Below the pieces are notes generated by a model. That model ran no database searches. It worked only from the letters and a program-made list of their open reading frames with translations, and was not told the DNA's origin. From positions 1,488,001-1,552,000 of the forward strand of contig NZ_CP053344.1 of the NCBI RefSeq assembly GCF_013113715.1: 64,000 nucleotides of DNA, read 5' to 3'. The translations under genes and the position numbers were made by a program. Each line of letters opens with the position of its first letter. Within the stretch, counting starts at the first letter, position 1. Of the stretch, positions 39,551 through 48,392 are shown piece by piece. The stretch comes from Herbiconiux sp. SALV-R1. GTDB taxonomy: Bacteria; Actinomycetota; Actinomycetes; Actinomycetales; Microbacteriaceae.

Positions 39551-40888
39551 TCAGGAGAGGGTGGAGAGCGCCGCGTCGAGGGCGGCGACGCCCCGGCGCA
39601 CCTCGTCGGGGGTGACGACGGCAGGAGGCACGACGTGGATGCGGTTGTCCTGCACGAACGGCAGCACGCCGTTCTCGAGCAGCGCGGCCTTGACCGCCCC
39701 CATCGAGGCGGCGGCCAGCGGTTCACGGGTGTCGCGGTCGGCCACCAGCTCGACCGCCCAGAACACGCCGCTGCCGCGCACCTCGCCGACGACATCATGC
39801 GTCTCGGCGAGAGTATGCAGGGCGGGGCCGAGGTGATCGGAGCCGATACGGGCGGCGTTGCCGACGACATCCTCCGCGCGCATGGCGTCGATCGTCGCGA
39901 CGATGGAGGCCGAGGCGAGCGGGTGCCCCGAGTAGGTGAGCCCGCCCGGGAAGACGCGCTCGTCGAAGAACCGTGCGACGCGGTCGGAGATGATGACGCC
40001 GCCTACCGGCACGTAGCCCGAGTTGACACCCTTGGCGAAGGTGATGAGGTCGGGCACGACGTCGTAGGCGTCGAGCGCGAACCAGTGGCCGGTGCGCCCG
40101 AAGCCCGCCATCACCTCGTCGAGGATGAGCAGGATGCCGTAGCGGTCGGCGATGGCCCGCACGCCTTCGAGGTAACCGGGAGGCGGCATCAGGATGCCGG
40201 CGGTGCCGGGCACGGTCTCGAGCAGGATGGCCGCGATCGAGTCGGGCCCTTCGGCCTGCACGGTGCGCTCGAGGTGGCGGAGGGCGCGCGCGCTCTCCTC
40301 CTCCGGGGTCTGCGCCCAGAACTCGGAGCGGTAGAGGTAGGGGCCGAAGACGTGCACGTGCCCGCGCGAATACTCGTTCGGGATGCGCCGCCAGTCGCCC
40401 GTGGCGACGACCGCCGCGCCGGTGTTGCCGTGGTAGCTGCGGTAGAGCGACACCACCTTGTCGCGGCCGGTCACCTGCCTGGCCATGCGGATGGCGTTCT
40501 CGTTGGCGTCGGCACCGCCGTTGGTGAAGAAGACCTTCTCGAAGCCCTCGGGGGCGAGCTCGGTGATGCGCTTGGCCGCCTCGTTGCGGGTGGCGTTGGC
40601 GTGGGCGGGCGCAACGGTCGTGAGGAGGCTCGCCTGTTCCGTGATCGCCTCGACGACGCGCGGATGCTGGTGACCGATGTTGACGTTCACCAGCTGGCTC
40701 GAGAAATCGAGGTACTCACGGCCGTCGTGGTCCCACACGGTCGAGCCGAGGCCCCCGGCGATGACGAACGGGCTCAGGGCACCCTGGGCCGACCAGGAGT
40801 GGAAGACGTGGGCGCGGTCGGCGGCGCGGACGTCGTCGTTGCTGCGCGGGCCGTCGGTGGCGACGCGGGGCGGGGAGGTGAGGGTCAC
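39551..40888 (-). CDS. Class III omega-aminotransferase (beta-alanine/pyruvate type)
   Basis: 445 aa. PLP fold type I: FTNGGADANENAIRMARQVTG (phosphate-binding), LYRSYHGNTGAAVVATGD, LILDEVMAGFGRTG (Asp to PLP ring) and DLITFAKGVNSGYVPVGG (PLP lysine). Class III omega-aminotransferases move the distal amino group of beta-alanine, GABA or taurine to pyruvate or 2-oxoglutarate. The product of beta-alanine would be malonate semialdehyde, substrate of the adjacent mmsA product. Starts 101 bp after the PucR gene, which may control it. Confidence 0.93.
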   Translation of the reverse strand: MTLTSPPRVATDGPRSNDDVRAADRAHVFHSWSAQGALSPFVIAGGLGSTVWDHDGREYLDFSSQLVNVNIGHQHPRVVEAITEQASLLTTVAPAHANATRNEAAKRITELAPEGFEKVFFTNGGADANENAIRMARQVTGRDKVVSLYRSYHGNTGAAVVATGDWRRIPNEYSRGHVHVFGPYLYRSEFWAQTPEEESARALRHLERTVQAEGPDSIAAILLETVPGTAGILMPPPGYLEGVRAIADRYGILLILDEVMAGFGRTGHWFALDAYDVVPDLITFAKGVNSGYVPVGGVIISDRVARFFDERVFPGGLTYSGHPLASASIVATIDAMRAEDVVGNAARIGSDHLGPALHTLAETHDVVGEVRGSGVFWAVELVADRDTREPLAAASMGAVKAALLENGVLPFVQDNRIHVVPPAVVTPDEVRRGVAALDAALSTLS

Positions 40889-40989: not shown

Positions 40990-42510
40990 CTATTGGTCGC
41001 CGATGAGCTCCAGGGCCGACCAGATCTCCGCCCGCACGGCGAAGTCGCCCAGGTTGACCCCGAGCATCCGTTCGACCGTCTCCACCCGGCTCTTCACGGT
41101 GTGCCGGTGCACGTGCAGGGCTCGCGCTGCCGGATCCCACGCGCCGTGGTTCTCGAGCCACACCCGCACCGTCTCGAGCAGCACGGTGCGCTCCGGTTCG
41201 CGCACCTGCAGCACGGGGGCGAGCAGGGTGCGCGCGACACTCTCGCCACCGGCGACGCGGAGCAGTCCGTGCAAGCCGCGCTCGGCGAGGCTCTCGTAGT
41301 CGACGACGGGGTCGCTGGGGCTCGCCGCACGCGCGGCGTGCGCCGCCTCGGAGACCCCGACCCGCAGATCGGCCCACGACACGCGGCTCGAGGTGCCGGC
41401 CGTCATGCCGTGCCGCGCGATGAGGGAGCGGAGCTCGGGCGGGGTGGTCGCGCCGGCGACGAGCAGCACGTCGCCGTTGCGTTCGGCGTAGAAGAAGCCG
41501 CGGTCGTTCCGCACCGCTTCGAGCTCGAGCTCGTCGAGCGCCGAGGGGCTGAGGCCGTCGCCCGCGATCAGCGTGACGACGATCGGCTCGGCCGGCAGGC
41601 TGCCCCAGACCGACGCGGCGGTGCGGCTCGCCACCTCCCACTCGCCGGCCATGAGGAGTTCCAGAAGGCCGGTGCGCAGCTGGCGGCGCGCAGCATCCAG
41701 TTCGCGTCGTTGCTCCAGCACGATGCTGGCGATCCCGATGACGCTCTCGACGACCTCGTGGCCCGCAGGGTCGAGCGGGCCGGAGGTTCCGACCGCCAGC
41801 ACACCGCGCAGCCGCCCGCGCTGCCCGATGGTCTGCAGAGATATGCCGACATCGGAATGGATGATGCTGAGGCCCGCCCGGGTGCCCTTCATGAGGGTCT
41901 CGTACGCCGCCGCCTCGACGGCCGGTCGCACGTCTGCGGGTGGCCCCGACAGCCCCGGAACGTGAAGCGGTGCCCCGGTCGAGTCGAAGAGCGCGACCCA
42001 GCAGTCGAGCTGGGCCGAGAGCTCGATGAGGATGGCGCCGAGCCCGTCGGACGACAGGGCCGCGCGCGCGATCGACCGGTGCGCGTCGAGCGACCACTGC
42101 ACGCGCGCCCGGCTCTCGGCGGCGAGCTCGCTCGCGACGAACCTGATGATCGAGATGAAGAGGGTCTCCCGCTCGATCTCGATGAGGGCCAGACCCTGCT
42201 CGGCGCACGCGTCGATGAGGGCGGGGGGTATGGCGGGGTGGATGACGCGGATGGCGAAGCCGAGGGCGTGGATGTCGCGCTCCACGAGCCGGCGCACGTA
42301 CTCAGCGGCGAACCGCTCGTCGACGCCCGCGAACTGCGCGCCGTCGGTCAGTAGCAGCTGCCCCGACTCGAGCCAGGGCGTCGGATCGGCCAGATCGGAG
42401 CTGTGCGCCCACGACAGCGACACCTCGCTCGCGTCCCGCGCCCCGTCGGGCACGACCAACCGGGCACGGAACTCCGGATGCTGGAGCAACGACTGCAGAC
42501 GGGCGGGCAC
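40990..42510 (-). CDS. PucR-family regulator
   Basis: 506 aa. N-terminal PucR domain (ASEVSLSWAHSSDLADPTPWLESGQLLLTDGA region, the purine-catabolism-like sensor), a GGDEF-like middle part, and the C-terminal HTH: TVRVWLENHGAWDPAARALHVHRHTVKSRVETVERML. GTG start. Same strand and just upstream of the aminotransferase-mmsA pair, so it is the likely activator of that pair. Differs in domain layout from the PucR protein at 26430-27614. Confidence 0.93.
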   Translation of the reverse strand: MPARLQSLLQHPEFRARLVVPDGARDASEVSLSWAHSSDLADPTPWLESGQLLLTDGAQFAGVDERFAAEYVRRLVERDIHALGFAIRVIHPAIPPALIDACAEQGLALIEIERETLFISIIRFVASELAAESRARVQWSLDAHRSIARAALSSDGLGAILIELSAQLDCWVALFDSTGAPLHVPGLSGPPADVRPAVEAAAYETLMKGTRAGLSIIHSDVGISLQTIGQRGRLRGVLAVGTSGPLDPAGHEVVESVIGIASIVLEQRRELDAARRQLRTGLLELLMAGEWEVASRTAASVWGSLPAEPIVVTLIAGDGLSPSALDELELEAVRNDRGFFYAERNGDVLLVAGATTPPELRSLIARHGMTAGTSSRVSWADLRVGVSEAAHAARAASPSDPVVDYESLAERGLHGLLRVAGGESVARTLLAPVLQVREPERTVLLETVRVWLENHGAWDPAARALHVHRHTVKSRVETVERMLGVNLGDFAVRAEIWSALELIGDQ

Positions 42511-42569: not shown

Positions 42570-42839
42570 TCACCGGTCGCCGCGGAGGGTCAGCGCGAGG
42601 CGCGGGCAGAGCGCCACGGCGTCGCGAGCGGCCGGCATCTCCTCGGGCGGGACAGGGACGTCGGTTCGAGCACCGGCCGGTGCGGCGGCCAGGGGATAGC
42701 CGTCGTCGTCGGCCCGCAGGAGCGCGGGGAGCAGTTCGAGGCAGGCTCCCCGGGCCTGGCATCGCGTCCAGTCGATGTGGAGGGTGGCCGCAGGTCGCCG
42801 ACGGGAGAGCGCGGGTGAGGTCGCTTCTGCGCGGGTCAT
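42570..42839 (-). CDS. Small single-cluster ferredoxin
   Basis: 89 aa. Cysteines at 27 and 33 (RCQARGACLELLP) and 78 (ALCPRLAL) give three ligands in the CxxxxxC...CP pattern of actinobacterial 3Fe-4S ferredoxins. HIDWTRCQARGAC is the usual N-terminal strand and cluster loop. A Pro/Ala-rich insert separates the halves. The ATG overlaps the stop of the NuoF-like gene by 4 nt, so it is the final gene of the electron-transfer operon and likely exchanges electrons with that flavoprotein. Confidence 0.85.
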   Translation of the reverse strand: MTRAEATSPALSRRRPAATLHIDWTRCQARGACLELLPALLRADDDGYPLAAAPAGARTDVPVPPEEMPAARDAVALCPRLALTLRGDR

Positions 42840-44062
42840 GAGCGGGCCCTTTCGCAGCAGATGCCCGCCCGGTGCCGCTCCAGCTCGCCGGAGAAGACCT
42901 GGAGCGCCGAGCGCGCGAGAGCAACGGTGCCATCGGGGTGATGGCAGGCACCGCGGCCGGGAATCGTCTCGAGGAGATGCCCGATCGCGCCCGGGTCGCG
43001 CTCGCGACCGGAGGCGTAGGCGGAGAACCGCTGTGCAAGCCGGGGGAGGCCGAGCACGCACGGCCCGCACTGTCCGGCGCTCTCGGCCGCGAGGTAGTCG
43101 AGGATGGACGCGTTGACCCTGAGCCCGCAGCTCGCGGTTCCCAGCACCAGGACGACGCCGGCACCGGCCGCGACAGCATCGGTGCCCTCGGCCGGCCGGG
43201 CGGTGAGCCGCCGGTTCAGTTCGTGGGCCGGAACCCAGCGCCCGTGATAACCGCCGACCAGCACGGCCTGGACGCGTGAGTGGTCTGCGCCGACCGACGC
43301 CAGCACCTCGGCGATCGGGAGGCCGCCGGGCACCTCCACGACCCGGTCGGAGACACCGTCGCCGCTCACGCTGACCAGACGCGTACCGGGATCGTCGAGA
43401 GTGCCGCTGCCGCGGAACCAGACGGCACCGTACCGGGCGATGAGCGCGATGTGTGCGAGCGTCTCCACGTTGAACAGGAGGGTAGGCCGACGGCCCGCCC
43501 CGCGCTCGGTGAGATGCACGGGATGGTCGCTCGGGACAGCGGATGCTCCGGCCAGGCCGGACACCACGGCCGTCGCCTCACCCGCGACGAACCGGTCTTC
43601 AGCCACCCGCACCTCGATGTGCCGACCGTCGGTGCGATCGAGGAGGGCTCGTCGAAGCGACTCGGCCCCGTCTCGATGAGCCACGATCACGAGTCGCGCG
43701 CGGGGGTTCAGCGCTGCGGCCAGGAGCACGAGGCCGTCGACGACGAGATGGGGTGCGTGCCGCAGCAGGGTGGCGTCTTTGCGGCTGAGGGGTTCCCCTT
43801 CCGAACCGTTCCCGATGATCGTGCCGGGAGGGCCGGCGAGCGAGTCGACTTTCCTCGACACGGGGAAGGCACCGCCGCCGCGGCCGGTGAGCCCGGAGGC
43901 GCGGAGCTCGGCGACGAGACCCGATGCCGCCGGCACCGGTCCGAACCGGGCGGTGTGAGCGGCCGACCCGGCATCCGGCCCCGCGGCGAAGAGTCGAGAC
44001 GGCAGCGCGCCGGCCGGGGTCACGGGGAGCGCTGTGGGCGGCACGGCGTTCGTGGTGGTCAT
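42836..44062 (-). CDS. NuoF-like NADH-binding flavo-iron-sulfur protein
   Basis: 408 aa. GLTGRGGGAFPVSRKVDSL and GTIIGNGSEGEPLSRKD match the FMN/NAD site of complex I subunit F; an SLBB region (VVEVPGGLPIAEVL) and a C-terminal iron-sulfur domain follow. In NuoF the cluster loop is ESCGKCTPC; here it reads ESAGQCGPC, so the first Cys ligand is Ala, with a further Cys in RGACHHPDG. No NuoE or NuoG is nearby, so it is not part of complex I. Overlaps the cytochrome gene upstream and the ferredoxin gene downstream by 4 nt each. It probably feeds NAD(P)H electrons into the membrane module. Confidence 0.88.
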   Translation of the reverse strand: MTTTNAVPPTALPVTPAGALPSRLFAAGPDAGSAAHTARFGPVPAASGLVAELRASGLTGRGGGAFPVSRKVDSLAGPPGTIIGNGSEGEPLSRKDATLLRHAPHLVVDGLVLLAAALNPRARLVIVAHRDGAESLRRALLDRTDGRHIEVRVAEDRFVAGEATAVVSGLAGASAVPSDHPVHLTERGAGRRPTLLFNVETLAHIALIARYGAVWFRGSGTLDDPGTRLVSVSGDGVSDRVVEVPGGLPIAEVLASVGADHSRVQAVLVGGYHGRWVPAHELNRRLTARPAEGTDAVAAGAGVVLVLGTASCGLRVNASILDYLAAESAGQCGPCVLGLPRLAQRFSAYASGRERDPGAIGHLLETIPGRGACHHPDGTVALARSALQVFSGELERHRAGICCERARS

Positions 44063-44634
44063 CCGTGCATCCTCTCGGTCACTCGTTCGGCACGTTCGAT
44101 CGGCGTCGAGCGGAAGCGGGTCGACGCGACCCGCCAGATCAGCGCGGCGACCACGGAGACGGCGGTCAGCACCGCCAGCGCGTCGAACCACAGGCTGCCG
44201 CCGTCGGTGCCGTTGCCGAGGGAGTGCAGGAGCGCGACCGGCCACATCAGGTAGACCGACCAGTGCACCAGCCGGAACACCCGCGCCGGCAGCCGGTGCC
44301 GGAGCAACGCCGTGATGACGACCGCGACGACGAGGTCGGATGCGACGGTGCCGAGCCCCTGCCAGAACGGCTGAACGGAGCCGAGGAACGGGATGACGAT
44401 GTCGATCAGGGAGAGCTTCGCATAGCTGTCTCCGAGAAGCGTCAGCACGTGGAGCACGAGGAAGACCGCTGCGAGCAGCGAGACGTTGCGGTGCAGGAGC
44501 ACGATTCCGAACCGGGGCAGGCCGGGCAACGGCTTGCCCGCCCGGGTGAGGATGCCGAGCAGCACGGATGCCGTGAACAGCACCAGCGACAGCACCCCGC
44601 TCATGCGACCGATCGCCCAGAGCACCTCAGACAC
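44059..44634 (-). CDS. Ferric-reductase-like transmembrane cytochrome b
   Basis: 191 aa with about six TM helices and no cytoplasmic flavin domain. His residues inside helices (LLHRNVSLLAAVFLVLHVLTLLG; RVFRLVHWSVYLMWPVALLHSLG) are spaced as in bis-haem ferric reductase-like proteins (MsrQ/FRE superfamily). It should carry electrons across the membrane. The NAD(P)H side is likely supplied by the NuoF-like protein and ferredoxin encoded next in the operon, the outer side by a flavinylated or haem partner. Confidence 0.88.
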   Translation of the reverse strand: MSEVLWAIGRMSGVLSLVLFTASVLLGILTRAGKPLPGLPRFGIVLLHRNVSLLAAVFLVLHVLTLLGDSYAKLSLIDIVIPFLGSVQPFWQGLGTVASDLVVAVVITALLRHRLPARVFRLVHWSVYLMWPVALLHSLGNGTDGGSLWFDALAVLTAVSVVAALIWRVASTRFRSTPIERAERVTERMHG

Positions 44635-45526
44635 GGGCTGCCTCCTTGTGGGTGGGCCACGCGCCGGTGGTGCTGACGGTGTACTGCTGATCGACGAATC
44701 GCGCCGGCACGTCGCGAGCGGCGAGCCAGGGGAGAGCCTCGTGGCCGAGGATCACGGCGGCGGTGGAATAGGCGTTCGCCTCGACACAGCTCACCGCGGC
44801 GCAGGTGACGGTGCGCCAGGGACTCTGCACCGGCTGCAACGACCGGGGGTCGAGGATGTGGTTCACGAGCTCGGCCCCGACCCGGTGGCGCCGGTGCTGC
44901 GTGCTCGAGGTGGCGATCGCCGCACCCGCCGTGAGAGCCACGCGTTCGGCGGGATCACCGGCCCGGTCTTGAACCGAGACCTGCCAACCGCCGTCCGGGT
45001 GCTCCACTGTCGAGGCGAGGTCGCCGCCGATGCCGACGAGGGCTCCGGCGTCGGGGCCGAGCGTTCGCGTGATCGCTCTGACGACCTGCTCGCAGGCGGA
45101 GGCCTTGCCGATCGCGCCGAGATCGAACCCGGTGCCGGGAGGCGCCGTGAGCACGCCGTCCTCCAGCGTGACGTCAGCCCAGCGGACGGGACGGGAGAGC
45201 GATGTCGGCACGCCGAGCGGTGGGCCGTCGAGCCGGGAGAGCTGGTGGCCGAGGGTCGGGTCGACGAGTCCGTCGGTCAGCTCGGCCGCGGCGAGCGCGT
45301 CGCCGAGGAGCTCGGCCAGCTGCGGGGACACTCGGGTGGAGGAGGCGCCCGACCGGGTGAACAGGGAGAGCTCCGAGTCGGGACGGTAGCGGCTGCAGGC
45401 GGCGTCGACCGACGCCATCACCTCGACGCAGAGGCGGGTCGCCTCGTCGAGCAGGGCGGGGGCGGTGACGGTCAGCTCCACGTCGGTGCTCCAGGCCCGC
45501 CAGCGGGCGGTCGCTGTCGCGGTCAT
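44627..45526 (-). CDS. apbE: FAD:protein FMN transferase (ApbE family)
   Basis: 299 aa. ApbE enzymes attach FMN covalently to a Thr or Ser of an exported redox protein. Visible signatures: MASVDAACSRYRPDSELSLF (N-terminal FAD site), GFDLGAIGKASACEQVV, GALVGIGGDLAS and AAVSCVEANAYSTAAVILG (metal-site Asp/Thr region altered but recognisable). No signal peptide, so a cytoplasmic form as in several actinobacteria. It lies 1 bp after the Ser-rich membrane protein and overlaps the cytochrome gene by 8 bp. Its usual target, an FMN-binding domain protein, is not encoded in this operon. Confidence 0.9.
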   Translation of the reverse strand: MTATATARWRAWSTDVELTVTAPALLDEATRLCVEVMASVDAACSRYRPDSELSLFTRSGASSTRVSPQLAELLGDALAAAELTDGLVDPTLGHQLSRLDGPPLGVPTSLSRPVRWADVTLEDGVLTAPPGTGFDLGAIGKASACEQVVRAITRTLGPDAGALVGIGGDLASTVEHPDGGWQVSVQDRAGDPAERVALTAGAAIATSSTQHRRHRVGAELVNHILDPRSLQPVQSPWRTVTCAAVSCVEANAYSTAAVILGHEALPWLAARDVPARFVDQQYTVSTTGAWPTHKEAARV

Positions 45527-45527
45527 C

Positions 45528-45839
45528 TCACGACCCCCGCGTCGTTCCGTGGCTTGTGCTGCCGCGCGAGGGCGAGACCAGCCCGCCCGAGCCCGACGAC
45601 GACCCGCTCGAGCCCGACGACGACCCGGTCGAGCCGGACGACGAGCCCGACGATGAGCCGCTCGAACTCGACGACGACCCGCTGCCGGAGGAGGCCGGCG
45701 CCTCCGCTGCCGAGGCTTTCGACGCGGTCGTGTCGTGCCAGAGTGCGGCGGCGCCCACCCCTCCGCCGACGATGGTGGATGCGGCGAGCACACCGGTCAG
45801 CACCCGGGCGGCGCGGCGGCCTCTGTCGCGAGCGTTCAT
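45528..45839 (-). CDS. Ser/Gly-rich membrane-anchored small protein
   Basis: 103 aa. One hydrophobic segment (RVLTGVLAASTIVGGGVGAAAL, residues about 12-33) and then a long Ser/Gly repeat ending SRGSTSHGTTRGS. It looks like the membrane anchor and flexible linker of exported FMN-binding proteins, but without the FMN-binding domain. AAAGGAG precedes the ATG. It is the first gene of the electron-transfer operon and starts 39 bp after the tandem 11-bp repeats. I cannot say whether it is a flavinylation target, a spacer protein, or a shortened relic. Confidence 0.75.
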   Translation of the reverse strand: MNARDRGRRAARVLTGVLAASTIVGGGVGAAALWHDTTASKASAAEAPASSGSGSSSSSSGSSSGSSSGSTGSSSGSSGSSSGSGGLVSPSRGSTSHGTTRGS

Positions 45840-45877
45840 GGGTCACTCCTTTCGGTCGGTGACACCAGCATCCGCTC

Positions 45878-45899
45878 GGTTTCTTCCAGGATTCTTCCA
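45878..45899 (-). promoter_or_regulatory. Tandem 11-bp response-regulator box, electron-transfer operon
   Basis: On the minus strand TGGAAGAATCC is followed directly by TGGAAGAAACC, two head-to-tail 11-mers. An 11-bp direct repeat is the classic binding pattern of OmpR/PhoB-type regulators. The same 11-mer pair lies at 47819-47840. Both flank the two-component genes. Confidence 0.75.
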
Positions 45900-45915
45900 A
45901 CGGGCACCCAGCGGG

Positions 45916-47094
45916 TCACGGGCGCGGCAGTGTCGCCTCCACCACCCCACCGGGGAGTTCCTTCACGACCCGGGCCGAACCGCCGTAGCGGTTCACCACG
46001 TCGGCCACCAGCGCGAGGCCCAGCCCGTAATGGGCGGGGCCGGCGCCGGGCGTGCGGTCGGACGCGAAGCGTTCGAACGGCCGATCGCCGTCTCGGAAGC
46101 CCTGCCCGTCGTCGGCGACCCGGATGCGGACGGTCTTCGCCTCCTGACCCACCTCGACGGTCACCGAGGAACGGGCGTGATCGAGGGCGTTGGAGATGAG
46201 GGAGAAGAGCACCCGGCGAAGCGGTGCCTCCGCCGCGGCGGCCACGGCAGCCGCCGACGTGTGGAGGGTGAGCTCGATCCCCGCCGCCTCGGCCTCCGCG
46301 CCCGCTGCCGTCACCACCTCCCGCGCGATCGCCGATACGTCGACGGCGCCGACGGATGCGGGCCGGTCGTCGGCGGCGATCAGCAGGTCTTCGAGAATGG
46401 CGGTGAGGCCCGCCGCGTCGGCGACCACCGCATCCGCTTCCGACTGCAGCCGGGCGGGGGAGGTGTCGCCCTGGATGCGGCGGCGGAGCAGCTGCACCCG
46501 TGTGCTCAGCAGTGTGAGCGGAGTACGGAGCTCGTGGCTGGCGTCGGCGACGAATCGACGCTGCTTGGCCAGAGCATCGGTCAGCGGCCGCATCGCCCTC
46601 CGCGACAGCAGGTACCCGCCTGCGGCAGCAGCCACCACGCCCACGGCCCCGGCTCCGACGAGCGACCAGGCGAGCCTGCCGAGCTCTTCGTTCGACTCGT
46701 GCTGGTCGATGGCGACCTGCACGAGGGTGTTCTCGTCGAGGCGGGTGCGCACCGCGTAGCTGCGCCCGTCGGCGGAGACCGTCGAGTCGACCACCTGTGC
46801 CCCCTGCTGAACTCGCTCCAAGGCCGCGGTGTCGGGCAGGCCCTCGGGGAGCGGTTTCGACGACTGGGCGCGACCGCTGCGCACCGTGATCACCCAGGTG
46901 TCGGCCGGGGCCTCGTCACCTCGCAGGTCTTGCCCGCTGATCGAGAGCGCGCGGTCGGTCGACTCCGCGACCGACGCGCTGACGAGAGCGTAGGCCAGAA
47001 CGCCCACGACAGCGATGATGACGGCGATCACAGCGGAGAACTGCAGCGCGAGCCGCCGGGCGGTTCGTCGCAGGGCGAGGTCTTCGGCCGTCAC
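45916..47094 (-). CDS. OmpR-type sensor histidine kinase
   Basis: 392 aa. TM helix at about 16-38, an outer sensing region of about 90 residues (DTWVITVRSGRAQSSK, AVRTRLDENTLVQVAIDQHE), a second TM at about 140-162, then HisKA with QRRFVADASHELRTPLTLLSTR (phosphorylated His) and an ATPase domain (LFSLISNALDHA, VADDGQGF, HYGLGLALVADVVNRYGG). GTG start overlapping the regulator stop by 4 nt. The signal is unknown; redox state or metal is plausible given the neighbouring electron-transfer operon. Confidence 0.93.
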   Translation of the reverse strand: MTAEDLALRRTARRLALQFSAVIAVIIAVVGVLAYALVSASVAESTDRALSISGQDLRGDEAPADTWVITVRSGRAQSSKPLPEGLPDTAALERVQQGAQVVDSTVSADGRSYAVRTRLDENTLVQVAIDQHESNEELGRLAWSLVGAGAVGVVAAAAGGYLLSRRAMRPLTDALAKQRRFVADASHELRTPLTLLSTRVQLLRRRIQGDTSPARLQSEADAVVADAAGLTAILEDLLIAADDRPASVGAVDVSAIAREVVTAAGAEAEAAGIELTLHTSAAAVAAAAEAPLRRVLFSLISNALDHARSSVTVEVGQEAKTVRIRVADDGQGFRDGDRPFERFASDRTPGAGPAHYGLGLALVADVVNRYGGSARVVKELPGGVVEATLPRP

Positions 47095-47759
47095 GGTGCA
47101 CCGAGCCGGTAGCCGATGCCGCGCACCGTGTCGACCACCCCGCGGCCGAGCTTGCGACGCAGGTAGTGCACGTAGGTGTCGACCACGCCGAGTTCTTCCG
47201 CCACGGGGAAGGCCAGCCGCAGCAGGGTCGCCCTCTCGAACACCTGGCTTCGGTCTCTGGCCAGCACTTCGAGCAGCGTCGACTCGCGTTCGGAGAGCGC
47301 GACGGTCTCGCCCGAGCCCCGCACCACCAGCCGGGTGGACGGGGTGAACACGCCCCCGTCGCAGAGGGGCAACGTGGCCGCCGTCGTCTCGTGGCGCCGC
47401 AGCAGGGCGCGCACCCGGGCGAGGAGCTCGTCGATGTCGAAGGGCTTGCTGAGGTAGTCCTCGGCCCCGCTGTCGAGCCCCTCCACCCGGTCGGCCGGGT
47501 TGCCGAGGGCGGAGAGCACCAGAACGGGAACGCCCACCCCAAAGCGCCGCCACCGGGTGAGCACGTCGAGACCCTCGAGGAGCGGAAGGCCGCGATCGAG
47601 CACGATGGCATCGAAGTCCTGCGTCAGCGCCAGATGCAGCGCCCGCTGGCCGTCGTGCGCGAGGGTCACCGCGTACCCCTCCTCGGCGAAGAGCTCGTCG
47701 AGCATCGCCGACAGGGAGCGGTCGTCTTCGACGATCAGGATGCGCGGGCCGTCCGACAT
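47091..47759 (-). CDS. OmpR-family response regulator
   Basis: 222 aa. Receiver domain with ILIVEDDRSL, phosphoacceptor Asp in DAIVLDRGLPLLEG and Lys in DYLSKPFDIDEL; the C-terminal winged helix has LSERESTLLEVLARDRSQVFERATLL and VVDTYVHYLRRKLG. The start MSDGPRIL at 47759 is preferred over an ATG at 47807 because the shorter form matches the family and leaves room for the divergent promoter. It probably binds the 11-bp tandem repeats at 45878-45899 and 47819-47840. Confidence 0.93.
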   Translation of the reverse strand: MSDGPRILIVEDDRSLSAMLDELFAEEGYAVTLAHDGQRALHLALTQDFDAIVLDRGLPLLEGLDVLTRWRRFGVGVPVLVLSALGNPADRVEGLDSGAEDYLSKPFDIDELLARVRALLRRHETTAATLPLCDGGVFTPSTRLVVRGSGETVALSERESTLLEVLARDRSQVFERATLLRLAFPVAEELGVVDTYVHYLRRKLGRGVVDTVRGIGYRLGAP

Positions 47760-47818
47760 GGCGAGAAGTCTAGAGCCGGGCGCTGTCAGACCGCGCTGTG
47801 CGCGCATCCGTCTCGCTG

Positions 47819-47840
47819 TCTAAGAATCTTGGAAGAATCT
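47819..47840 (+). promoter_or_regulatory. Tandem 11-bp response-regulator box, DUF2231-like gene
   Basis: TCTAAGAATCT and TGGAAGAATCT lie head to tail, matching the pair upstream of the Ser-rich protein gene. The box ends only 9 bp before the ATG of the DUF2231-like gene and 59 bp from the response regulator start on the other strand. It could repress the former or activate the latter. Confidence 0.7.
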
Positions 47841-47849
47841 GCCGAGACG

Positions 47850-48392
47850 ATGAGCGACATGTTCGACACCTTCTTCGGTCTGCCGCTGCACCCGTTCATC
47901 GTCCACGCCACCGAAGTGATCGTGCCGGCCGCCGCCGTGCTCGTCGTGCTCACCGCGGTGTGGCCGAGGTGCCGGCGATGGGCGGGCTACCTTCCGCTCG
48001 CATTGGCGCTGGTCGCGCTCATCCTGGTTCCGATCTCGACCGAATCGGGCGAGCGGCTGGAGGGCAGGGTGGGGGAGAACGACCTGATCGAACGCCACGC
48101 CGAACTCGCCGACGGACTGCTGCCCTGGGTGATCGGGCTGGTCGTCGTGGCGGGGCTGCTGCTGGCATGGACACTGTTCGAGAAGCGGTCGACTCGCGCG
48201 CAGGCGGAGACGGCCGACGTGGCGCAGCCGGCCAGGCGACGCCTGCGGTGGATTCCCGCGGCACTCATCGTGCTGGCGCTGGTCGCGGCGTCGGGTACGA
48301 CCGTGCAGGCCGTGCTGATCGGCCACAGCGGGGCGACCGCGGTCTGGCAGGAGGACATGGGCACACCGCCGTCGTCCGACTCAAACGAGTAG
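47850..48392 (+). CDS. DUF2231-like membrane protein
   Basis: 180 aa with four TM helices (about 14-30, 44-62, 88-108, 132-155). The opening FFGLPLHPFIVHATEVIVPAAAVLVVL is the signature of DUF2231, where the two His in a helix may bind haem or metal. A charged loop joins helices two and three, and the C-terminus is acidic. Function unknown. Divergent from the two-component system and preceded by its probable binding box, so it likely belongs to the same regulon as the ApbE/cytochrome operon. Confidence 0.8.
   Translation: MSDMFDTFFGLPLHPFIVHATEVIVPAAAVLVVLTAVWPRCRRWAGYLPLALALVALILVPISTESGERLEGRVGENDLIERHAELADGLLPWVIGLVVVAGLLLAWTLFEKRSTRAQAETADVAQPARRRLRWIPAALIVLALVAASGTTVQAVLIGHSGATAVWQEDMGTPPSSDSNE

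Follow-up and report, generated by a model that had tools for sequence, protein, structure and literature searches.

In a 64,000-nucleotide stretch of the genome of Herbiconiux sp. SALV-R1 (contig NZ_CP053344.1, positions 1,488,001 to 1,552,000 of the forward strand; hereafter the window), five closely packed genes on the minus strand encode a Ser-rich membrane protein, here called the tail protein, an ApbE family protein, a transmembrane cytochrome, a NuoF-like flavoprotein and a ferredoxin. This gene set is real and conserved, and the kind of system to which it belongs has been partly described; what is new in it is the tail protein, the tag at its C-terminus and an ApbE in which Asn stands at the position of the conserved catalytic Asp (hereafter, Asn type). 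We propose, with a probability of about 0.58, that the set as a whole conducts electrons across the membrane to a flavin held outside on a flexible leash. In the preliminary description of this DNA, the Ser-rich protein was taken for an anchor; the role of outer flavin carrier suits it better, given a C-terminal tag that is nearly fixed among its relatives. The genes concerned, with positions counted from the first base of the window, are the following.

45528..45839, minus strand: tail protein (Ser-rich membrane protein), 103 residues, with a basic N-terminus, one membrane helix, a Ser/Gly-rich tail and a C-terminal tag; proposed flavin carrier
45531..45551, minus strand: codons of the final seven residues, HGTTRGS; proposed ApbE tag, with the terminal Ser as the proposed site of flavin mononucleotide (FMN)
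44627..45526, minus strand: ApbE family protein, Asn type, 299 residues; PF02424, E 4e-42; no obvious signal peptide
44059..44634, minus strand: PF01794 (Ferric_reduct; MsrQ/ferric-reductase-like) transmembrane cytochrome, 191 residues; PF01794, E 1.1e-9; four invariant His
42836..44062, minus strand: NuoF-like flavoprotein, 408 residues; PF01512 (Complex1_51K), E 7.4e-26, and PF10589 (NADH_4Fe-4S), E 2e-13
42570..42839, minus strand: three-Cys ferredoxin (Fer4_15), 89 residues; PF13459, E 2.7e-13

Conservation of the gene cluster and of the C-terminal tag

In a family sample of 299 genomes, 43, counting the own genome, encode a homologue of the NuoF-like protein (E <= 1e-20), and a scan of named genomes with the NuoF-like alignment gave at least 576 relatives. 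The best 80 of these loci are mostly from Actinomycetota, and include Streptomyces, Arthrobacter, Nocardia, Rhodococcus, mycobacteria, Kribbella, Jiangella and actinoplanetes; they were taken along with 40 of the 46 NuoF-like places in the family, the latter with wide flanks. Profiles built from the cluster proteins show that the gene order ApbE, cytochrome, NuoF-like protein, ferredoxin recurs among the relatives. A tail-like open reading frame (ORF) lies upstream in 105 of the 118 clusters whose NuoF-like proteins differ from one another; for one of these (L037) the counted ORF is spurious, and the true tail lies farther upstream. The fetched stretch contains ApbE in 95 of the 105 tail-bearing clusters, and all four core genes (ApbE, PF01794 cytochrome, NuoF-like protein, ferredoxin) in 94. 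Because 94 of 105 related clusters carry the four core genes beside a tail-like gene, we conclude that the arrangement is not due to chance; the conserved co-occurrence that the preliminary description had proposed as its check is thus borne out.

The other 13 clusters were scored as lacking a tail-like ORF. By eye, L124 and L130 do have one; L125 and L142 are cut by a contig end, L097 is broken, L075 and L133 have no ApbE there, and L070, L082, L135 and L146 have no cytochrome at the locus. Of 158 plasmid records five were examined, and those of Cnuibacter, Rhodococcus, Arthrobacter and Gordonia carry the cluster order; the Streptomyces record (L075) has neither ApbE nor tail. In four mycobacterial genomes (L159, L160, L161 and L162, with L096, L113, L124 and L129), a lone ApbE adjoins a ferredoxin and a kinase/regulator pair, which are missing from the NuoF cluster there, while the tail, cytochrome and NuoF-like protein are encoded at another place; this is a split version of the same system. 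Two estimates of prevalence were left unused: one over the class by NuoF alignment (148/394, E <= 1e-80), as some matches were taken to be genuine complex I NuoF, and one over the family by cytochrome alignment (48/199, E <= 1e-20), as some were taken to be the cytochromes of other reductases.

The tail protein has no significant match among Pfam or NCBIfam families. Tail proteins consist of a basic start, one membrane helix and then 22-143 residues (median 72) of low complexity. The 20 residues that lead up to the helix contain on average 4.70 Lys and Arg, those that follow it 0.42, and the former number is the higher in 105/105 ORFs; by the positive-inside rule, the tail is therefore expected outside the membrane. 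Its make-up is variable, being rich in Ser, Thr, Gly and Asp in many clusters, in Pro and Ala in L038, L051 and L099, in Gln and Tyr in L121, and in Pro, Tyr and Thr in mycobacteria.

Pairwise identity over 101 tails, computed in seven-residue blocks anchored at the end, is 46% in the last block and 17-25% in the next five. That the C-terminus is the best conserved of these six blocks led us to reject the idea of a mere anchor. Counting from the end (n = 105), the last residue is Ser in 100 tails, the next is Gly or Ala in 101, position -4 is Ser or Thr in 99, and position -7 is His, Gln or Asp in 79. The pattern [ST]x[GA]S ends 96 of the 105 tails, compared with 4.2 expected from a random place in the same tails, a null that ignores relatedness; when the count was repeated on 55 representatives below 65% NuoF identity, 49 had it. 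A chance origin in Ser/Gly-rich sequence was rejected on these grounds.

According to the available text of a review (PMC12052999), the enzyme recognises the motif D-x-x-[S/T]-G-A-[S/T] and places FMN on its last residue; seven residues are enough, and they work best at the N- or C-terminus. Exactly this motif ends 11/105 tails, from streptomycete-type clusters (DSTSGAS), and [ST]GA[ST] ends 12/105; in L134 and L157, TGAS lies 3 to 23 residues upstream of the C-terminus. Most of the remaining tails end in near variants of the motif, such as HATTSGS, QVTSGGS and HARSSGS, and HGTTRGS of the window is likewise a variant. Comparison of the clusters shows the tag and, at the level of sequence, its link with ApbE.

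A scan for the seven-residue tag over 12,382 ORFs in 136 loci returned 18 ORFs beyond the counted tails, all with a hydrophobic segment and a low-complexity end. Twelve repeat tails already counted, from loci that occur more than once in the set; the other six (one of them present as two entries) are tail-like, and include extra ORFs of L041, L058 and L060/L106 and a larger protein of L059. The scan pattern was drawn from the tails themselves, so that this clean result shows specificity and is not independent proof.

Extra tails lie near several clusters (L041:5104-5673, minus strand; L058:4293-5021, plus; L060:9544-9801, minus; L091:817-1179, plus; L157:409-801 and 782-1333, plus). Some are rich in Pro/Ala or Ala/Lys; that of L091 precedes a regulator gene, and its counterpart in L090 ends in SSSS. 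The larger protein (L059:9907-10590, minus strand) looks exported, bears the tag AQGQTSGS and is encoded two genes before ApbE; its middle part is not of low complexity, and it has no Pfam family, a first impression of a PepSY domain having found no Pfam support. From this larger protein carrying the same end, the tag may be transferable. On plasmid p174 of Gordonia polyisoprenivorans (L077), the cluster starts about 0.5 kilobases (kb) after the gene of an MpaB-family oxygenase, and its tail ends in VHTAAS; MpaB is the family of the latex-clearing proteins. In the PLSDB gene table, which is incomplete, the tail gene of the Cnuibacter plasmid (L073:5095-5487, plus strand) is unannotated and its neighbours are annotated. 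Because they are short and low in complexity, such tail genes may have gone unnoticed by annotation.

The Asn-type ApbE and the redox proteins

The catalytic set of ApbE is Ser-His-Asp, as given in the part of PMC12052999 available. In an alignment with solved ApbEs, the cluster ApbE keeps the conserved Ser and His and has Asn at the position of Asp285 of the V. cholerae enzyme, the conserved catalytic Asp. Among the 95 tail-cluster entries, His and Ser were read in 94 with one gap, and the catalytic position is Asn in 91 (the window included), Glu in two and a gap in two; in one alignment the change from Asp to Asn is invariant in 47 ApbEs. Asn is also found in 27 further ApbE entries, 13 of which are second copies of counted clusters. 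Against a profile of the cluster ApbEs, Asp-type ApbEs (n = 14, from 10 genomes including the own one, and none of them a tail-cluster entry) score at most 106 bits, whereas the tail-cluster entries mostly score above 240. A PF04205 (FMN_bind) match adjoins 12 of the 14 Asp-type ApbEs, the others being L179 and that of the own genome, which stands beside an FMN_bind-like gene; the Asn-type ApbEs in the genomes examined have no adjoining PF04205 match.

As far as these alignments and scores go, the cluster ApbE is a separate type. In an ApbE tree, a well-supported branch (100/92) sets apart 118 rows, all of the Asn type except where the position was unread. The residue label needs two changes rather than one, the Glu-bearing L071 and L157 grouping with L186; three non-tail rows passed the length filter, so that the tree says little about Asp types. 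Where a tail cluster lacks its own ApbE, an ApbE is found elsewhere in 7/8 such tail-bearing genomes, the exception being L093, from a 2.8 megabase (Mb) metagenome assembly; L038 and L051 have a second cluster with ApbE in the same genome.

Pfam finds no FMN_bind match in the eight proteins of the window locus. PF04205 has no match in the own genome either, as the FMN_bind-like lipoprotein encoded at another locus escapes it; an earlier statement that this genome has no FMN_bind protein was accordingly withdrawn. That second flavinylation locus (L078:6253-9250, contig C1 near 4,392,250-4,395,250) encodes the lipoprotein, with the motif VAGSSLTSGG, an Asp-type ApbE, and a reductase of 506 residues with a NAD_binding_1 domain and a hydrophobic N-terminal half. 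Its ApbE has no obvious signal peptide, though its likely substrate is exported. Among 20 genomes tested, nine encode PF04205 proteins and eight have tail and ApbE but no PF04205. These eight, whose completeness is not stated, have no homologue of the own lipoprotein and no DUF2271 (0/9 with the own genome included); DUF3570 was not searched. Genomes with an orphan apbE, whose substrate is unassigned, make up 4% of genomes in the portion available of Meheust et al. (2021, PMC8238504).

In the NuoF-like protein, the FMN and reduced nicotinamide adenine dinucleotide (NADH) residues G60, G63, K71, N85, E90, K95 and D96 are invariant (46 sequences aligned of 104) and align with two solved NuoF/HydB chains. 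Of the usual four cluster Cys it keeps C332, C335 and C373; the first of the four is replaced, nearly always by Ala. Three further residues, C312, C402 and H375, do not vary among 43 sequences, plasmid ones excluded, and for that reason one of them may supply the fourth cluster ligand. In the ferredoxin, three Cys and no others are invariant across 101/101 homologues, in agreement with its earlier naming as a 3Fe-4S protein. In the cytochrome, H48, H62, H124 and H137 are invariant in 62 aligned of 101 sequences; four such His would fit two bis-His haems, and the earlier label "bis-haem-like" holds.

Proposed electron path and competing explanations

In the proposed path, the NuoF-like protein would oxidise NADH or its phosphorylated form (together NAD(P)H) and, as its family suggests, pass the electrons through FMN and its iron-sulphur (Fe-S) cluster to the [3Fe-4S] ferredoxin. 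The ferredoxin would reduce the inner haem of the bis-haem cytochrome, and the four invariant His are consistent with electrons then crossing to an outer haem. This outer haem would reduce FMN that the dedicated, cytosolic-looking Asn-type ApbE is predicted to have put on the Ser/Thr tag at the C-terminus of the tail. Held by one helix with its C-terminus outside, the tail would leave the flavin free to move about in the cell wall and to pass electrons on to an external acceptor, most likely iron or another metal, judging from sporadic VIT-like and metal-transport neighbours. By its position, a direct-repeat operator would place the operon under the control of a two-component system. With its parts conserved, a chain that leads from NADH through FMN/Fe-S, 3Fe-4S and two haems to the FMN of the tail is plausible; we infer each of its transfers, as we infer the flavinylation of the tail, the direction of flow and the final acceptor. 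The NAD(P)H-to-membrane chain of the preliminary description stands as the natural reading of families that co-occur widely, with its Ser-rich member re-read as a flavin carrier.

An N-terminal membrane segment was sought by hydropathy in 94 ApbEs, and none was convincing (two reach 1.6 and 12 reach 1.3). Since no export signal is visible on ApbE, attachment of FMN would probably take place before the unfolded tail crosses the membrane; alternatively, the enzyme is exported in some other way. Some ApbEs are known to be cytosolic (PMC12052999, in the text available). Export in the unfolded state with the flavin attached would be possible because the tail has no domain to fold. We therefore entertain, tentatively and with the odds somewhat against it, the more specific claim of a domain-free class of carriers in Actinomycetota: a disordered swinging arm whose sole redox part is FMN esterified to its C-terminal residue, loaded in the cytosol by the Asn-type ApbE and threaded out unfolded with the flavin in place.

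Several observations weigh against the flavin leash. Two clusters (L044 and L108) contain the whole core and no recognisable tail, and are real misses among the 13. With its catalytic Asp replaced by Asn, the cluster ApbE may be no ordinary FMN transferase. It also lacks a signal peptide; with the end of the tail predicted to lie outside, flavinylation would have to precede export. The tag of the window is non-canonical: it has neither the Asp nor the Gly-Ala of the motif, of which nothing but the Thr at -4 and the terminal Ser is retained. The tails of L071, L093, L113, L129, L149 and L154 depart from the motif as well. Among six further Asn-type ApbEs, a tail is present in the stretch for L168, L181 and L184 and absent for L173, L178 and L187. 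Finally, an FMN_bind gene and an Asp-type ApbE (L182, on C23, a contig equal in length, at 57,005 bases, to that of L099) apparently lie about 3 kb from the tail cluster L099, which has no ApbE of its own, and no recurrent gene for a terminal reductase or acceptor was recognised by eye among the cluster neighbours. The genome of L099 also carries an Asn-type ApbE with a tail elsewhere (L181), and both kinds of flavin carrier may work there side by side.

A different explanation, which we consider unlikely though deserving of attention, is that the tag is a docking or recognition peptide and that the Asn-type ApbE has lost transfer and become a helper that binds or splits flavin adenine dinucleotide (FAD), the outer carrier being something else, for example free FMN. 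The exchange of Asp for Asn, invariant in the 47 aligned ApbEs and nearly so in all tail-cluster ApbEs, points in this direction, as does the non-canonical form of most tags, an [ST]GA[ST] end being confined to 12 tails. However, the catalytic Ser and His are kept in the cluster ApbEs, and it would be a strange coincidence if docking peptides ended in the exact minimal ApbE tag in 11 tails and had TGAS near their ends in L134 and L157. Far less probable, in our judgement, is ordinary MsrQ-like flavinylation, with ApbE serving an FMN_bind protein from another locus; the Ser-rich protein would then be no more than a wall or membrane spacer. MsrQ-like clusters typically include an FMN-binding gene, according to the available text of Meheust et al. 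(PMC8238504). The own genome does have an FMN_bind-like lipoprotein, PF04205 proteins occur in nine of the 20 genomes tested, and the L099 tail cluster seems to have an Asp-type ApbE and an FMN_bind gene close by; yet the lipoprotein locus has an Asp-type ApbE of its own, eight genomes with tail and ApbE lack PF04205, DUF2271 and any homologue of the lipoprotein, and a spacer has no need of a conserved C-terminus.

We give equally little credence to an inward wire, in which an external reductant would supply the tail flavin with electrons, for the reduction of NAD+ by the NuoF-like protein. NuoF homologues in NAD-reducing hydrogenases and formate dehydrogenases do run in that direction, but the potentials of FMN and b-type haem make NADH the likelier donor, and no recurrent gene for an outer dehydrogenase was recognised among the neighbours.

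Gene neighbourhood, regulation and known systems

On the minus strand the genes are transcribed in the order regulator, kinase, tail, ApbE, cytochrome, NuoF-like protein, ferredoxin, and from the tail gene through the ferredoxin gene neighbours overlap or abut, with gaps of at most a few bases. Placement and packing are thus as first described, and so is the two-component pair at the head of the cluster (47759-45916, minus strand). The remaining features of the locus are listed here.

47091..47759, minus strand: response regulator, OmpR-type, 222 residues; PF00072, E 3.8e-26, and PF00486, E 9.7e-14
45916..47094, minus strand: membrane histidine kinase, 392 residues; PF00512 and PF02518; four-base overlap with the regulator gene
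47850..48392, plus strand: DUF2231 membrane protein, 180 residues, accessory; PF09990, E 1.9e-7; divergent, with a promoter region in common with the regulator
47821..47837, plus strand: possible operator TAAGAATCTTGGAAGAA, no mismatches, in the divergent regulator/DUF2231 promoter
45881..45897, minus strand: possible second operator copy GAAGAATCCTGGAAGAA, one mismatch, upstream of the tail gene

Downstream lie genes named by eye and apparently unrelated, for a PucR/CdaR-like regulator (40990-42510, minus strand) and a class III aminotransferase-like protein (39551-40888, minus strand). The genome consists of two contigs (4.52 Mb). PF00346, the 49 kDa subunit of complex I and the only other complex I subunit searched, is absent from it, and the operon protein is its single NuoF-like match at E <= 1e-20; the description of a NuoF-like protein without other complex I subunits is upheld to that extent.

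The direct repeat TAAGAATCnTGGAAGAA has one copy in the regulator/DUF2231 promoter and another ahead of the tail gene. With up to two mismatches allowed, these are the two sites that the genome has for the operator pattern, itself derived from this locus; a reversed control pattern gave one site, so that about one match is expected by chance. Similar repeats precede the tails of L033, L034, L035, L038 and L081 with 16-18/19 matches, compared with at most 14/19 in 440 shuffles of the pair-bearing set. Kinase and regulator are both near the cluster in 22 of 105 loci, and the notion that the pair is a fixed part was rejected on that count: it is accessory. At least 15/19 matches are reached in 4/22 loci with kinase and regulator, the window included, and in 4/83 others; the operator is therefore not general, and it was rejected as a general mark of the clusters. 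The preliminary description's "own two-component regulon" is suggested for this locus by the two repeat sites.

VIT-like neighbours, read by eye, occur in 7/104 clusters and DUF2231-like ones in 5/104, and VIT, DUF2231 and metal-transport genes are annotated nearby in the Cnuibacter and Rhodococcus records. These neighbours point weakly to iron or another metal as acceptor or cue.

The NuoF-like protein resembles NuoF/HydB/HoxF of complex I and its relatives in its FMN and NADH site and its Fe-S domain; it differs in the near-constant Ala in place of the first cluster Cys, in the absence of PF00346 from the genome and in having ferredoxin and cytochrome genes as neighbours. A system from 2018, cited in PMC8238504, reportedly carries electrons from NADH through the membrane to an outer carrier flavinylated by ApbE, as is proposed for the operon; unlike the operon, it reportedly uses an Ndh2/quinone route, a folded FMN_bind carrier and a secreted ApbE.

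The closest relatives in the literature are the MsrQ-like flavinylation clusters, of which 31/1797 have a NuoF-like protein (PF10589), mainly in Actinobacteria (Meheust et al. 2021, PMC8238504, in the text available). The window encodes a PF01794 cytochrome with apbE, the mark of these clusters, and shares with them the proposed NAD(P)H donor and, with some, the NuoF-like protein. In contrast to what that text gives as typical, no FMN-binding-domain gene was found in the window cluster, which has a domain-free tail instead, an Asn-type ApbE and a 3Fe-4S ferredoxin within the set. The portion of PMC8238504 available neither names a tail flavin carrier nor tests the set. The type is thus not wholly uncharacterised, contrary to the preliminary description, since MsrQ-like clusters with a NuoF-like protein were already listed there.

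Two systems resemble the tag, as far as the available texts go. In the engineered Flavin-tag (Tong et al. 2021, as described in PMC12052999), seven residues D-x-x-[ST]-G-A-[ST] at a terminus are enough for ApbE; here the same kind of tag seems to be natural, the window having a variant. In FMN_red proteins, flavinylation on an unstructured C-terminal extension, supported by co-expression with the cognate ApbE (PMC11334425, mSystems 2024), parallels the proposed site on the tails; those proteins, however, have a folded flavin-binding domain for the tethered FMN, and the tails have no recognised domain. In the accessible parts of three ApbE papers (PMC8238504, PMC11334425 and PMC12052999), natural substrates hold the flavin in or beside a folded domain. 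We found no description of a domain-free tail as an ApbE substrate in the open-licence literature searched (supplements excluded).

If the proposal is true, a leashed flavin with no domain around it is enough to carry electrons in the Gram-positive wall, and the swinging-arm tail would be the flavin counterpart of the lipoyl and biotin swinging arms. Tail and ApbE form a two-protein system that is easy to test, and the Asn-type ApbE is a natural active-site variant of interest in itself. The proposal would also name an ApbE substrate for genomes without FMN_bind proteins, and in its swinging-arm form would account for some of the genomes still left with an orphan ApbE.

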